Origin: a virus
IMG/VR virus record: IMGVR_UViG_3300046328_000073
Location: 1-21,025 of that record
Direction: 5' to 3' (one strand)
Length of the DNA: 21,025 nt
Shown: positions 3,718 to 18,828 of the stretch, piece by piece
Layout: the number at the start of each line of letters is the position of its first letter
Position numbering within the stretch: the first letter of the stretch is position 1
Made by a program: the position numbers and the translations under genes
The notes under the pieces: generated by a model
Told to the model about the DNA's origin: nothing
The model's database searches: none
What the model saw: only the letters and a program-made list of their open reading frames with translations

Positions 3718-3881
3718 TGAGTAACCTACAAAAACTACTTGGTTATATTAAAGGGGGTTATGATTACGAGTTTGATTGGTGTAGTCAAACAGGTGTCGTA
3801 TACCTAATTGTTCAAAACCCCGAGTATAAAAAAAGGGGGGATAACCCGAATCTTGTGGCCGTATTGGTAGAGAAAACATGA
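3717..3881 (+). CDS. Small hypothetical protein, 54 residues
   Basis: The frame opens at an ATG overlapping the upstream TAA (TAATG) and closes in the ATGA that starts the phosphoesterase gene, so it fills the gap exactly. The product starts MSNLQKLLGYIKGGYDYEF and is probably a mixed alpha/beta mini-protein (LVAVLVE near the end). It contains an A7G6 homopolymer at 3828-3840 encoding KKRG, which could promote slippage or sequencing error; in the given sequence the frame stays open. No family is recognised. Confidence 0.65.
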   Translation: MSNLQKLLGYIKGGYDYEFDWCSQTGVVYLIVQNPEYKKRGDNPNLVAVLVEKT

Positions 3882-14207: not shown

Positions 14208-16421
14208 TTAACGGGCAACTACAAATACCTTACCACGTTTATCGTTCTCGTTATAAAAAGCTTCAAACAGATTGATAAGGGTTTGTCCAGAGTAAAGACT
14301 ATCAGGAGTAATACTATCAACATAAACTGTTTGAGGGTTAGGTTCTCTCTCAGTGGGGGCTACGGTAGAGGTTCCTACGCCACCACCACCTCCACCACCG
14401 CCAGCACCTCCAATAGACTTAATCTTGGCTACAGCACCCAAGCCTTGCGCAAGGAATGTAGCATAAGCAGCTATCTTACCGGGAATAGTGGTAGCTTTAG
14501 CAGCAGCGGTAACAGCGTTTTCATAGGCGGCGATAGTAGTAGATGCAGCAGATAGGGTGGCCTGAACCTTTAGCATTTTCTTACCACCAACCCCAGCCAA
14601 GTCAGCAAGGGCACCAAACATGTCCCCAGTCTCACCTAAACGAGTGTTTGTTTCCGCAGAGAGCAACCCTCTAAGTCTGGACTGATACTCCTCTTCAAGT
14701 TTAATTTTAGCCTCATTCTTACCACCGACAATAGCAAGTTCAGCGTCAGAGGCAGATTGAAGTGCGGACTGGGATTCTTCATACCAAATAGCAAGAGTTT
14801 CTTGTTCAGTCTGTAGTTCAGTGATAAGAGACTCTAGGCGAGCATTACCTCCACCGCCAGAACCACCGGAGGAACCAGAACCCTCAACCTCACCAAGCAT
14901 AGCAGGGGCACCCCTTGGTCTTGGGGAGTTAAAGATGGGTTCAGAGCCGCCAGCAATAGCAGACATAGTGCCTGCAACCCCACTAGCCCATTCGGCAGCT
15001 TTCCCAGTAAACCCACTGAAAGCAGCTTGGAAGTTAACAGCCACACTAATAGAGGTTCCACTTAGGCTTGTTAGGATATCAGAAAGCTTTTGTGCCCTTA
15101 TTTTACCTTCCTCAATAGCCTTGGCAAGTTCTTCTGCCCTTTTAGCAGCGGCAGTTATAGCTTTTTCAGAGGCAACAAGGGAATTATAATAAGTTGTATA
15201 TTGAAGATTCCTCTCTTTAGCGGATGAAATCTCTTTGTCTAACTTTGCTTGTGCTTCTGCTCTTTTATTATTAGCATCACTTAGTTGAGCCAAATCTTTA
15301 ATAGAAAGCTGTAACTCTTCTTCTTTTAGAGCGATTTGGTTTTCTAAAATACCAATTTGCCTACCACCAGCGATAGCACGTTCGGCGTCTAATACTTTCA
15401 AATCTTCGTTGATTTGAGCCACTCTTATGGAGAGGTCTTCCATCATTTGCCCAAACTCAGTTCCAAACCTAAGTTCAGACCACTTTGCAGCCAGAGAATC
15501 CGTCTCGGAAGACAGTCTTTTTAAGGAATCTTCTACTTTAGTAAGGGCTTCTTCCCCCTCACTACCTGAACGCATCCACAGAGCACCAAGAGCGGTAATT
15601 AGGGGAATACCGATACCCAAAACAGTAGACAGACCAATAGCAGCAGCGGTAGTTAAGCCTAAGCTAGTAGCAACAAGGGGGAGAACACCAACCAACTGTG
15701 TAGCCTGTTGGCCGAAAGCAACCATCCAGTTAGTGCCAGACTGAATTTGGACTAAGAAGTCACCAACCTGATAACCTGTCTGTTGGGTAACAACACCCCA
15801 CTGGTTCATTTTACCAGCAGCCATTGCACTCCTAGTACTAACCTGAGCAAACTCTCGATTTAAGTTTTCAACTGCGAGTTCATGTTGCTTCGCGTTAAAC
15901 ACCCCCATCCTATGAGCCATATTGAGTTCTTCAAGGGAAGCTTCATACCTTTTAGATGAGGCGTAAATACTATCGTATTTAGAACGGAGCCTGTCCATTT
16001 CAGCAGACATAGCAGCAGCAGATGCAGCGGCATTAGTGCCGTTGCTACTTAGGCCAAGGTTACCCCCAATATTGCTTTGGTAGGAGGAGGCTCTAGAGGC
16101 GGCAAGTTGGGCTTCTGCATCCCTTTGACGAAGGGTAGTGGCAATCTCTCTTTGAGCCATACGCTCAGACTCTTGCATCAAAGCAATACGTCTACGTTGA
16201 GCGTTACCCCACTCGGTCATAGACTTTTGGGCTATAACCCCAATAGTCATTTCGATAGCTTGTTGTTGAACTTTAGCGTCTGCTTGTAAGGCTTGAGTAA
16301 GCCTTTTATTTTCTCTAGTTAACCTAGCCACCATCGCAGTAGCGGCAGGGCCTAACTCAGTGAGAATACGCTTAAGGTCTTGAAGATCATTAAAGTTGGC
16401 TGTTACGTTAAGATCGTCCAT
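14208..16421 (-). CDS. Tape measure protein
   Basis: The longest gene in the window codes for 737 residues and lies just after the frameshifting tail chaperones, as tape measure genes do. Residues 216-243 (GYQVGDFLVQIQSGTNWMVA and on) match the conserved core of the lambda-type prophage tape measure family. A hydrophobic region follows (about 232-283), probably membrane-inserting during DNA ejection. Most of the rest is alpha-helical and coiled-coil, with two glycine-rich linkers (GSSGGSGGGG and GGAGGGGGGGG). At roughly 0.15 nm per residue the tail would be near 110 nm, an estimate. ATG 16421 is used, with AAAGGTGG upstream, rather than a TTG two codons earlier. Confidence 0.93.
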   Translation of the reverse strand: MDDLNVTANFNDLQDLKRILTELGPAATAMVARLTRENKRLTQALQADAKVQQQAIEMTIGVIAQKSMTEWGNAQRRRIALMQESERMAQREIATTLRQRDAEAQLAASRASSYQSNIGGNLGLSSNGTNAAASAAAMSAEMDRLRSKYDSIYASSKRYEASLEELNMAHRMGVFNAKQHELAVENLNREFAQVSTRSAMAAGKMNQWGVVTQQTGYQVGDFLVQIQSGTNWMVAFGQQATQLVGVLPLVATSLGLTTAAAIGLSTVLGIGIPLITALGALWMRSGSEGEEALTKVEDSLKRLSSETDSLAAKWSELRFGTEFGQMMEDLSIRVAQINEDLKVLDAERAIAGGRQIGILENQIALKEEELQLSIKDLAQLSDANNKRAEAQAKLDKEISSAKERNLQYTTYYNSLVASEKAITAAAKRAEELAKAIEEGKIRAQKLSDILTSLSGTSISVAVNFQAAFSGFTGKAAEWASGVAGTMSAIAGGSEPIFNSPRPRGAPAMLGEVEGSGSSGGSGGGGNARLESLITELQTEQETLAIWYEESQSALQSASDAELAIVGGKNEAKIKLEEEYQSRLRGLLSAETNTRLGETGDMFGALADLAGVGGKKMLKVQATLSAASTTIAAYENAVTAAAKATTIPGKIAAYATFLAQGLGAVAKIKSIGGAGGGGGGGGVGTSTVAPTEREPNPQTVYVDSITPDSLYSGQTLINLFEAFYNENDKRGKVFVVAR

Positions 16422-17153
16422 GTGCAACCACCTTTATATAGACTGTATCCAGCCGCTTAATTACTTCTACCTCCCAAGGAGAGAGGGTTATTCCCGTAAG
16501 ATCACACCAAGCTTTTATCTCTTGGTAGGAAATAGGTAAGGGGGCACTATAGCCTTGACCACGAGTATGAGAGAGTTCAAGGAAGATAGACCAGACAGGC
16601 TCTAATAGATCAGGGAACCCTGGGCTTTGTAAGGCAACAGGGGTTCTACCCATCTGGTCTTCTACTTGCTTAAGATGTTCTCGCTCCGTCACACCGTCTT
16701 TATCTGGTATGGAGAGTTTGAAATCCCACTTGGCATACTCTTCTAGGTCAAGGGTTAGTTGGTCAAAAAACTAGTGAAGTCCTCTTGTGCCTCAAGAACC
16801 TGCATCTTAACCCAAGGGAGTTTGTCAAACAGGTCACGAGCAGCCTCTGGACTAAACTTAGGAGTCTTGCCCTCAAGTTGGATATCCCAATCTTTAGTGG
16901 TGTCAACCAGCATGTTGGTAGCGGAGTCTTCAATCTCTTCCGAGGTGAAAGTCAACTTCTTACCTTTAGCAGCCTTCTGCAAACGCTTGTTGGTTTGAGC
17001 GTGAATAACCGCTTTGTATTGTGCAGAGTGTGGGGCGTAAGTAGTAATAGTCTGGGGCTTACCATCATCTTTATTGAGAACCTCCTGAGTGACAGGGTGC
17101 TTGAGTTCAATAGTAATGGTATCAGATTTTGGGATCAGGTTGGAAAGGTCCAT
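16408..17153 (-). CDS. Frameshifted tail assembly chaperone (gpG-T-like fusion), 248 residues
   Basis: This is the -1 frameshift product of the tail assembly chaperone gene. The first 130 codons (17153 to 16764) are read in the G frame; after slipping on T TTT TTG the ribosome continues at GAC (16764-16762) for 118 codons to the stop at 16408-16410. The extension begins DQLTLDLEEYAKWDFKLSIP and stays open from the slip site; the 94-codon frame usually seen from GTG 16692 lies inside it and has no good start of its own. In lambda-like phages the minor GT product links chaperone to tape measure. Its tail contains IKAWCDLTGITLSPWEVEVI. The final bases overlap the tape measure start. Confidence 0.88.
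16755..17153 (-). CDS. Tail assembly chaperone, gpG-like
   Basis: This is the main, unshifted product, 132 residues, ending SFLTN just after the slippery site. It starts MDLSNLIPKSDTITIELKHP, with a beta-rich N-terminal half and a basic central part (NKRLQKAAKGKKLTF), typical of G-type chaperones that hold tape measure protein before tail tube assembly. Order (tail tube gene, this gene, shifted frame, tape measure gene) is exactly that of lambda-like and many other siphophages. The ATG at 17153 has an AGGA stretch about 12 bases upstream. Confidence 0.88.
   Translation of the reverse strand: MDLSNLIPKSDTITIELKHPVTQEVLNKDDGKPQTITTYAPHSAQYKAVIHAQTNKRLQKAAKGKKLTFTSEEIEDSATNMLVDTTKDWDIQLEGKTPKFSPEAARDLFDKLPWVKMQVLEAQEDFTSFLTN
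16764..16770 (-). promoter_or_regulatory. Slippery heptamer for programmed -1 frameshift
   Basis: On the minus strand the sequence T TTT TTG is in register with the G-frame codons AGT TTT TTG ACC AAC TAA, so both tRNAs can re-pair after a -1 shift, and the zero-frame stop is only two codons on. The -1 frame is then open for 118 codons. This is the standard X XXY YYZ form. No clear downstream pseudoknot was recognised by eye. Confidence 0.88.
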
Positions 17154-17251: not shown

Positions 17252-18409
17252 TTAGGTCGGGTTACGGATAATCTCGACGTTGGTATTCTCTGCGGTGTCA
17301 TAGAGGGCGACAAACGGCAGGGTAACAATACGAGAACCAGTAGGCCCATCAACAGGAACAGCAGCACCATTGATCTTCACACGAGGGAAGTGGAACGTGT
17401 AGTTGGAGAGGCCAGTAGGGTCGTTAACCGTAACTTGGAAAGCGGAAGCAGTCTCGTTAATGAAACGGTTGATCAGGGTAGCATCCTCAAAGTAGGCAGT
17501 AATAGTGCCTTCAACAGTAGCCATACCAAATTCAAGTTGGGGGGTAGAAGCAGAGCCAACAACAAAGGTAGGGGCAACCGAGTTTGAGATAGAGAAGTCA
17601 ATACCCGTAATCAAAGCAACTGCCGTCATAGCAGCCCCAGCGTTACCAAGGCTAAGAGAACCAGAGTAGCTATCGAAGGGTTGGTTGAGGGACGAAGGGT
17701 CTTTAGTGGGATCAAGTGATGTGCCCGAAAGGGTCATGTCTTTACCGATCATGCTAAAGGTAGCACTAATCATCGAGTTAGGTTTAATAGAGATAGCAGC
17801 AGTATCAACCGTCATACCAGTGAACAGACGGAACTGAGCAATGTCAGTAGCAGCATCTTCAATGGAGAAAGACTTGGGGGTAACGCCAACCTTTAATACG
17901 CGGTTAACAATCGTTCCTGCGACAGTCTGAGGGCCAGCGGTGCCGTTCAGGTAAGATACGCTGGTAGTAGTGCAAGCGGTAACAGTAAAGGTGCCATTAA
18001 AGCCAGCAGGTGTAACACCAGCAATCGTGATAGCAGAGCCTACAGGGAAGGGCGGGGTTGTCTGGACAGCGAAGGTAACAGTAGCTGTACCAGCAGCACT
18101 AGTAGCAGTAAGGGTAGCGAGGGGGGTAGAGTTAGCGAAGGCACTCATAAGGGCGCTCTCAAAGAAAGCGTCAAAGTCACCTTTACGGAGGTCTACAGCA
18201 ATATCACCACCAGTCTGACGGTTACCATGACGGTCAACACGGGCCATACGATCTGGTTGGATTTCATTACCCTGCACCCGATCTTTAGTAAGATCAAGCG
18301 AGTGGGTATTGATAGGTAGGGTTACGAAGACCGGAGAACCGGGGGTAACACCGAAAGTAACCTCGGTGACGTAAGAAAGGCCAGCACGGCTATTCTGGGA
18401 AAAGGGCAT
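17252..18409 (-). CDS. Major tail (tail tube) protein with inserted beta domain
   Basis: The 385-residue product starts MPFSQNSRAGLSYVTEVTFG, typical of siphophage tail tube subunits, and the region after residue 168 repeats the strand-rich tube fold (SFSIEDAATDIAQFRLFTGM, and later FHFPRVKINGAAVPVDGPTG). Residues about 98-168 interrupt it with a Gly/Thr/Val-rich module, VGSAITIAGVTPAGFNGTFT, of the Ig-like/'PxGxNGTxTV' type found on virion surfaces. Position between tail terminator and tail chaperone genes is decisive. The hexameric tube is built around the tape measure protein. Start ATG 18409 has GATAGGAG upstream. A strong hairpin and terminator follow. Confidence 0.88.
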   Translation of the reverse strand: MPFSQNSRAGLSYVTEVTFGVTPGSPVFVTLPINTHSLDLTKDRVQGNEIQPDRMARVDRHGNRQTGGDIAVDLRKGDFDAFFESALMSAFANSTPLATLTATSAAGTATVTFAVQTTPPFPVGSAITIAGVTPAGFNGTFTVTACTTTSVSYLNGTAGPQTVAGTIVNRVLKVGVTPKSFSIEDAATDIAQFRLFTGMTVDTAAISIKPNSMISATFSMIGKDMTLSGTSLDPTKDPSSLNQPFDSYSGSLSLGNAGAAMTAVALITGIDFSISNSVAPTFVVGSASTPQLEFGMATVEGTITAYFEDATLINRFINETASAFQVTVNDPTGLSNYTFHFPRVKINGAAVPVDGPTGSRIVTLPFVALYDTAENTNVEIIRNPT

Positions 18410-18423
18410 GGTTTAGACTCCTA

Positions 18424-18828
18424 TCAGTTATAGATATACCAGGCAATAGTGACTGGTGTGCAATAGAAAGGAGGGCTAAAGTAACTGTTCCCTACCTCAG
18501 AATATTCAACAGAAACGATGATACCAGCGAAACTAATATCCGTAGTGGCTACAAACCTATCTAGGAGTAAGTCAGCAAGATCGTAACCAGCACCAGCCCC
18601 TTGCCCCTCTGGTGTGCAGATAAGGATACTGTAGAGACCGTCATAGCGTTTCTGTGGGTTTGGGCCTCTAACAGCAGGCCTGACTGTATTTGGAACTAGA
18701 GTAGACTTTAGGAAGGCTACACCAGTAGTGGGGTTGTATAGAACGTTCTGCGGGGCTACAGCAGGGATACCAGCAGTTGCCAGTAGCCTAGTATCTAAAG
18801 CACCTCGGATATCATTTAGGATGCTCAT
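18424..18828 (-). CDS. Tail terminator protein
   Basis: The 134-residue protein matches the DUF4128-like tail terminator pattern: an N-terminal helix (SILNDIRGALDTRLLA), a strand-rich middle ending GLYSILICTPEGQGAG, a helix (DLADLLLDRFV) and a final strand CTPVTIAWYIYN. Terminators cap the tail tube and join it to the neck. Its gene order, after the tail completion gene and before the tail tube gene, is standard for siphophages. Start is in an ATGA overlap with the preceding gene. Confidence 0.82.
   Translation of the reverse strand: MSILNDIRGALDTRLLATAGIPAVAPQNVLYNPTTGVAFLKSTLVPNTVRPAVRGPNPQKRYDGLYSILICTPEGQGAGAGYDLADLLLDRFVATTDISFAGIIVSVEYSEVGNSYFSPPFYCTPVTIAWYIYN

Follow-up and report, generated by a model that had tools for sequence, protein, structure and literature searches.

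A predicted lambda-type programmed −1 frameshift with a P2-type slip site in the tail assembly chaperone genes of an IMG/VR phage and its relatives

In phage lambda, the tail assembly chaperones gpG and gpGT are described as being made in a ratio of roughly 30:1. The two proteins attach to the tape measure protein, T being the part that contacts the tail tube protein; the G/GT arrangement is reported to be widely conserved among long-tailed phages (PMC5009743). Phage P2 is described as making E and E+E' at the sequence TTTTTTG (PMC3091744), and an HK97-related cluster of phage tail assembly chaperones showed ~7% frameshifting in reporters (PMC3711429).

The window analysed here is a whole stretch of 21,025 nucleotides (positions 1 to 21,025 of IMG/VR virus record IMGVR_UViG_3300046328_000073), and it carries a locus that closely recalls these systems. 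As in lambda, a short G and a −1 GT lie between the tail tube and tape measure genes, with a stop soon after the slip site. Lambda slips at G GGA AAG, whereas the phage of the window carries T TTT TTG; the likeness to lambda is drawn from layout and frames, T in the window belonging to the Pfam family Phage_TAC_18. The likeness to P2 E/E+E' is drawn from the site and the layout, i.e. an identical TTTTTTG, a −1 shift, a position between the major tail and tape measure genes, and no evident 3' structure, but the tail of P2 is contractile and the two P2 proteins, of 91 and 142 aa, are shorter (PMC3091744, as far as that account goes). From the sequence comparisons that follow, we conclude with near certainty that the locus encodes a lambda-type G/GT programmed −1 frameshift with a P2-type slip site, by which two chaperones would be made from one start codon.

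The 3' end of G reads TTC ACT AGT TTT TTG ACC AAC TAA, so that the zero-frame gene ends two codons past an in-register T TTT TTG, as the original prediction had it, exact to the base (Table 1). At the junction the −1 frame reads TAG TTT TTT GAC CAA CTA..., and reading of the minus strand confirmed that it is open from the slip site for 118 codons, up to a stop ending at 16408; the third frame of the region is full of stops. Because the −1-frame TAG lies directly 5' of the heptamer, the shift must come after this TAG. The −1 frame also absorbs the 94-codon frame that starts with GTG (16692..16408), as had been proposed, and the gap of about 60 bases expected between the two conventional ORFs measures 62 nt; the coordinates and counts of the original prediction were all correct. 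TTTTTTG occurs only once over both strands of the whole record.

Table 1. Coordinates of the G/T overlap and neighbouring tail genes in the window
Feature	Position	Strand	Details
Tail terminator	18424..18828	minus	PF13554, E=9.7e-15
Tail tube protein	17252..18409	minus	PF18906 Phage_tube_2, E=5.4e-39
Gene G (zero frame)	17153..16755	minus	ATG start, TAA stop, 132 aa; from ORF
CAA GAG GAC TTC	16787..16776	minus	Contains GAGGA, weakly resembling a Shine-Dalgarno sequence; 9 nt upstream of the heptamer
TAG closing the −1 frame	16773..16771	minus	Abuts the slip site on its 5' side; from sequence
Slippery heptamer T TTT TTG	16770..16764	minus	G register (AGT TTT TTG); from sequence
T domain, −1 frame	16764..16408	minus	118 codons + stop; PF23812 match
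GTG ORF, 94 aa	16692..16408	minus	Downstream part of the T frame; conventional-annotation call
Tape measure gene	14208..16427	minus	phrog_1538 tail length tape measure, E=1.4e-15

In the proposed mechanism, most ribosomes would translate G, of 132 aa, up to the stop at 16755. A minority would slip back by one base with tRNA-Phe (on TTT) in the P site and tRNA-Leu (on TTG) in the A site, both of which could re-pair with TTT in the −1 frame. These ribosomes would continue through T as GT, a protein of ~248 aa that would read ...EDFTSFL followed by DQLTLDLEEYAKW..., and the predicted peptide across the G/T junction is ...EDFTSFL followed by DQLTLDLEEYAK. On the lambda model, many G and few GT would bind the tape measure protein, the T part would recruit tail tube subunits, the slip rate would set the G:GT ratio, and neither protein would be present in virions. 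That slippage occurs is our inference, as are its rate and the parts played by G and GT; the frame architecture, the heptamer, its conservation, the protein families, the gene order and the lack of a conserved T start are read directly from the sequences.

The protein families agree with this layout. G matches phrog_313, a tail assembly chaperone family (E=1.2e-7), which is also matched by 17 of 23 G homologues. For T, read in the −1 frame, the match is to the Pfam family Phage_TAC_18 (PF23812; E=3.7e-19) and lies well beyond the family cut-off; all 34 of the aligned T homologues match this family too. The genes run in the order tail terminator, tail tube, G, T and tape measure; the order tail tube, G, GT and tape measure that had been likened to lambda-like phages is borne out by the PF18906 and phrog_1538 matches. 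The tape measure ORF is listed from a TTG at 16427, and an ATG at 16421, which overlaps the last T codons, is its likelier start. Neither G nor T is represented by a model in NCBIfam, sequence searches of the PDB gave no relevant matches, and a scan of the window for tRNA and Rfam elements found none. A homopolymer patch (an A run followed by a G run) stands on the plus strand of the window at 3828-3841, outside long ORFs, between 3717 and 3878.

Structure predictions were obtained for both proteins. For the G model (pLDDT 83.6), the top solved match among 839 chains compared with VIA-align is 2OB9, a tail assembly chaperone of HK97, over 94 residues with 11% identity (Z 3.6, a weak match; Foldseek E=2.0). 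Because Z is just 3.6, we take this match only as a hint that G may adopt an HK97-type chaperone fold. The T model (pLDDT 92) begins with a helix at residues 2-18, and its comparison with solved structures gave no convincing match.

Searches of viral contigs and phage records with the G and T proteins yielded 305 sequences, window included; a nucleotide search of phage records returned no matches, so that searching with proteins was required. The relatives are mostly metagenomic contigs, and related sequences among them are not independent. T was recognised in 299 loci, and in 291 of these it lies in the −1 frame of G, while an in-frame G-T fusion was found in none of the 299. The eight loci without the −1 relation comprise five in which G is cut off by the contig end, two (L007 and L170) that are one contig seen twice and have T in the +1 frame, and L202. 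Removal of duplicates left 151 distinct junctions.

All 21 distinct close relatives analysed carry an in-register T TTT TTG. In these sequences the heptamer stands 13 nt ahead of the G stop, at identities of 57-67% for G and 65-70% for T. Conservation of the heptamer and the −1 frame in related phages had been proposed as a check: the −1 relation is conserved, and the clade of the window keeps T TTT TTG, but the heptamer is not universal in the wider family. Homologues with two independently started genes, which would speak for separate G and T, were not found. Since the relatives keep the signal, we regard the frameshift as almost certainly real, and the lambda-like G/GT interpretation put forward earlier is supported by the −1 relation, the families, the gene order and a GTG that is not conserved.

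Several loci stand apart. L202 (1484-1574) keeps GCT TTT TTG, and the reading frame of its T changes at a later point, which is probably due to an indel made in assembly. In L007 (940-1000; L170 is the same contig) the junction reads AAC TTT TTT CGT and T is in +1 relative to G; this arrangement, seen in a single contig, could reflect either +1 slippage at TTT C, similar to the UUU CGU of influenza PA-X, or a homopolymer indel. In Serratia phage Serbin (L038, 2001-2061) and in L222 the −1 relation of T to G holds, but the overlap shows no convincing slip heptamer.

The same records bear on whether an error of sequencing or assembly split one gene in two. The homopolymer at the junction is the sole feature in favour of such an error, and the same −1 split recurs family-wide, at distinct junctions with differing DNA, as well as in the isolated phages CRP-6 and AAT-1. 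We consider this explanation refuted by independent records with the same split, and its probability negligible.

A more serious alternative is that G and T are two separate genes, with G ending at its stop and T either having a start of its own at GTG 16692 or being re-initiated once G has been read. The 94-codon ORF does exist and covers the Pfam domain, and the relative CRP-6 has been annotated with two genes. However, this GTG, at T codon 25, is present in only 10 of the 21 distinct sequences (window included) and lost in the other 11. L004 has no ATG, GTG or TTG until T codon 57, and in six further relatives (L015, L018-L020, L031 and L032) no start codon precedes T codon 43, which is inside the conserved domain. 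A Shine-Dalgarno motif was looked for ahead of GTG 16692 in the window and none was found.

Separate genes would also leave the first 24 codons of T untranslated. The 24 residues from the slip site to the GTG (DQLTLDLEEYAKWDFKLSIPDKDG) are conserved in relatives, and the first predicted T helix lies 5' of this GTG, the sole one nearby. A conserved N-terminus and a helix upstream of the GTG imply that the stretch is under selection as protein, and frameshifting from G is therefore the only evident route by which it could be translated. With the heptamer and the synonymous constraint described below also left without explanation, we judge independent translation of T very unlikely. The sequence comparison indicates that the 94-aa GTG ORF is not an independent gene, and that T would be made only as a G-T fusion.

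The slip site itself shows signs of selection. Using a codon alignment of the 21 sequences, we measured synonymous divergence in blocks of seven codons over the entire GT gene, and the lowest value (observed/expected 0.32) falls at codons 124-130, which end in TTT TTG and take in GAG GAT/C, 9 nt upstream. Values of 0.38-0.42 are found in a few further blocks, and the divergence at the slip site is thus the lowest in the gene but not uniquely low. The slip codons TTT and TTG are invariant in this alignment.

Chance is a poor source for a heptamer at this position. When the codons of G in the window were shuffled, a canonical in-register heptamer appeared at the gene end in 234 of 20,000 trials (~1.2%). 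Across the 151 junctions, canonical in-register heptamers occupy 4.6% of sites in the overlap vs 0.24% elsewhere in G, an enrichment of ~20-fold. For T6G in particular, ~38 overlaps contain an in-register copy, as against 0 of 19,897 sites outside the overlap.

As to elements that may stimulate the shift, a downstream RNA structure was sought 3' of the slip site and none stands out (z = 0.34). P2-type T6G sites are likewise reported to lack a 3' structure, in the account given in PMC3091744. Upstream, GAG is preferred over GAA within the GAGGA stretch in 20 of the 21 sequences. Shine-Dalgarno-like stimulators are known at other bacterial −1 sites, e.g. in dnaX. The GAGGA located 9 nt upstream resembles these elements and, judging from its place and conservation, may be a stimulator of the frameshift. 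Its predicted anti-Shine-Dalgarno energy is weak (−5.8 kcal/mol), and we offer this role just as a suggestion, because the stretch is conserved yet is not the strongest anti-Shine-Dalgarno site in the gene.

In the wider family, the −1 relation persists while the heptamer changes. Sister groups that include CRP-6 (L035, 5380-5400), a marine clade, mostly carry G GAT TTT (~87 distinct junctions, by label), without a canonical XXXYYYZ, and the spacing between this sequence and the stop codon of G is fixed. At the same codon, neighbours have A AAT TTC (10), G GGT TTT (5) or A AAT TTT, and T TTT TTC is also used by sister clades near the same place. A tree of 146 T proteins shows 14 heptamer changes compared with a mean of 54 when shuffled, i.e. 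heptamers are strongly clustered, and the tree holds no CRP-6-group member without a recognised slip heptamer. Elsewhere in the G genes that carry G GAT TTT, Asp is encoded by GAC in 473 of 929 cases and Phe by TTC in 79 of 198, figures that are descriptive as the genes were picked by motif.

These sister clades also weigh on a third alternative, in which transcriptional slippage on the T6 run would put part of the mRNA in the −1 frame. A homopolymer run is indeed present, but it is of just six T and is no longer than this across the T6G clade, whereas bacterial cases are described on runs of ~nine (PMC5009743). Moreover, sister clades carry G GAT TTT or A AAT TTC in its place, with no long homopolymers. 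Slippage by the polymerase is accordingly even less probable than an independent start of T, and frameshifting by the ribosome is the reading we retain.

In pea enation mosaic virus, G GAU UUU has been demonstrated to be the slip site; in umbraviruses, A AAU UUU can take its place (PMC4737148). The likeness concerns the sister clade only, in which the same unconventional heptamer is found and the swap for A AAU UUU is paralleled between umbraviruses and phages; the viral site differs in belonging to a polymerase gene of a plant RNA virus, with a large 3' RNA element and a eukaryotic ribosome. A motif called 'twoonefour' is listed by PRFect among the sites of annotated phage frameshifts, according to the account in PMC10885494, and in our reading this name fits GG-A-TTTT. 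Because the pea enation mosaic virus site and the PRFect motif are already known, G GAT TTT in the sister clade is no more than a new, well-supported instance of a class that has been described before. Altogether, it is likely that one slip site gives way to another in this family while the −1 frameshift itself is conserved, with T TTT TTG in the clade of the window and, in the sister clade, a fixed G GAT TTT with substitutes at the same codon.

Roseobacter phage CRP-6 is the closest isolate with an annotation; its G and T are listed as separate unnamed hypothetical proteins, and the available part of the text of the CRP-6 paper has no mention of frameshifting (PMC6918029). As far as our searches show, the frameshift annotation of this phage group is new, an earlier one not having been found. 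The arrangement itself is standard, as in lambda and P2, and involves no new biological principle; we see it as an ordinary but solid case.

The finding corrects the annotation of this phage group, in which the G/T pair is to be read as one frameshifted product. The 151 distinct junctions form a well-conserved comparative series with a constant frameshift and a varying slip sequence, on which frameshift predictors can usefully be trained and the rules of bacterial slip sites tested. If G GAT TTT is functional in the sister clade, it would represent widespread bacterial use of a site of the pea enation mosaic virus type, and these phages would offer a natural series in which the evolution of slip sites could be followed.
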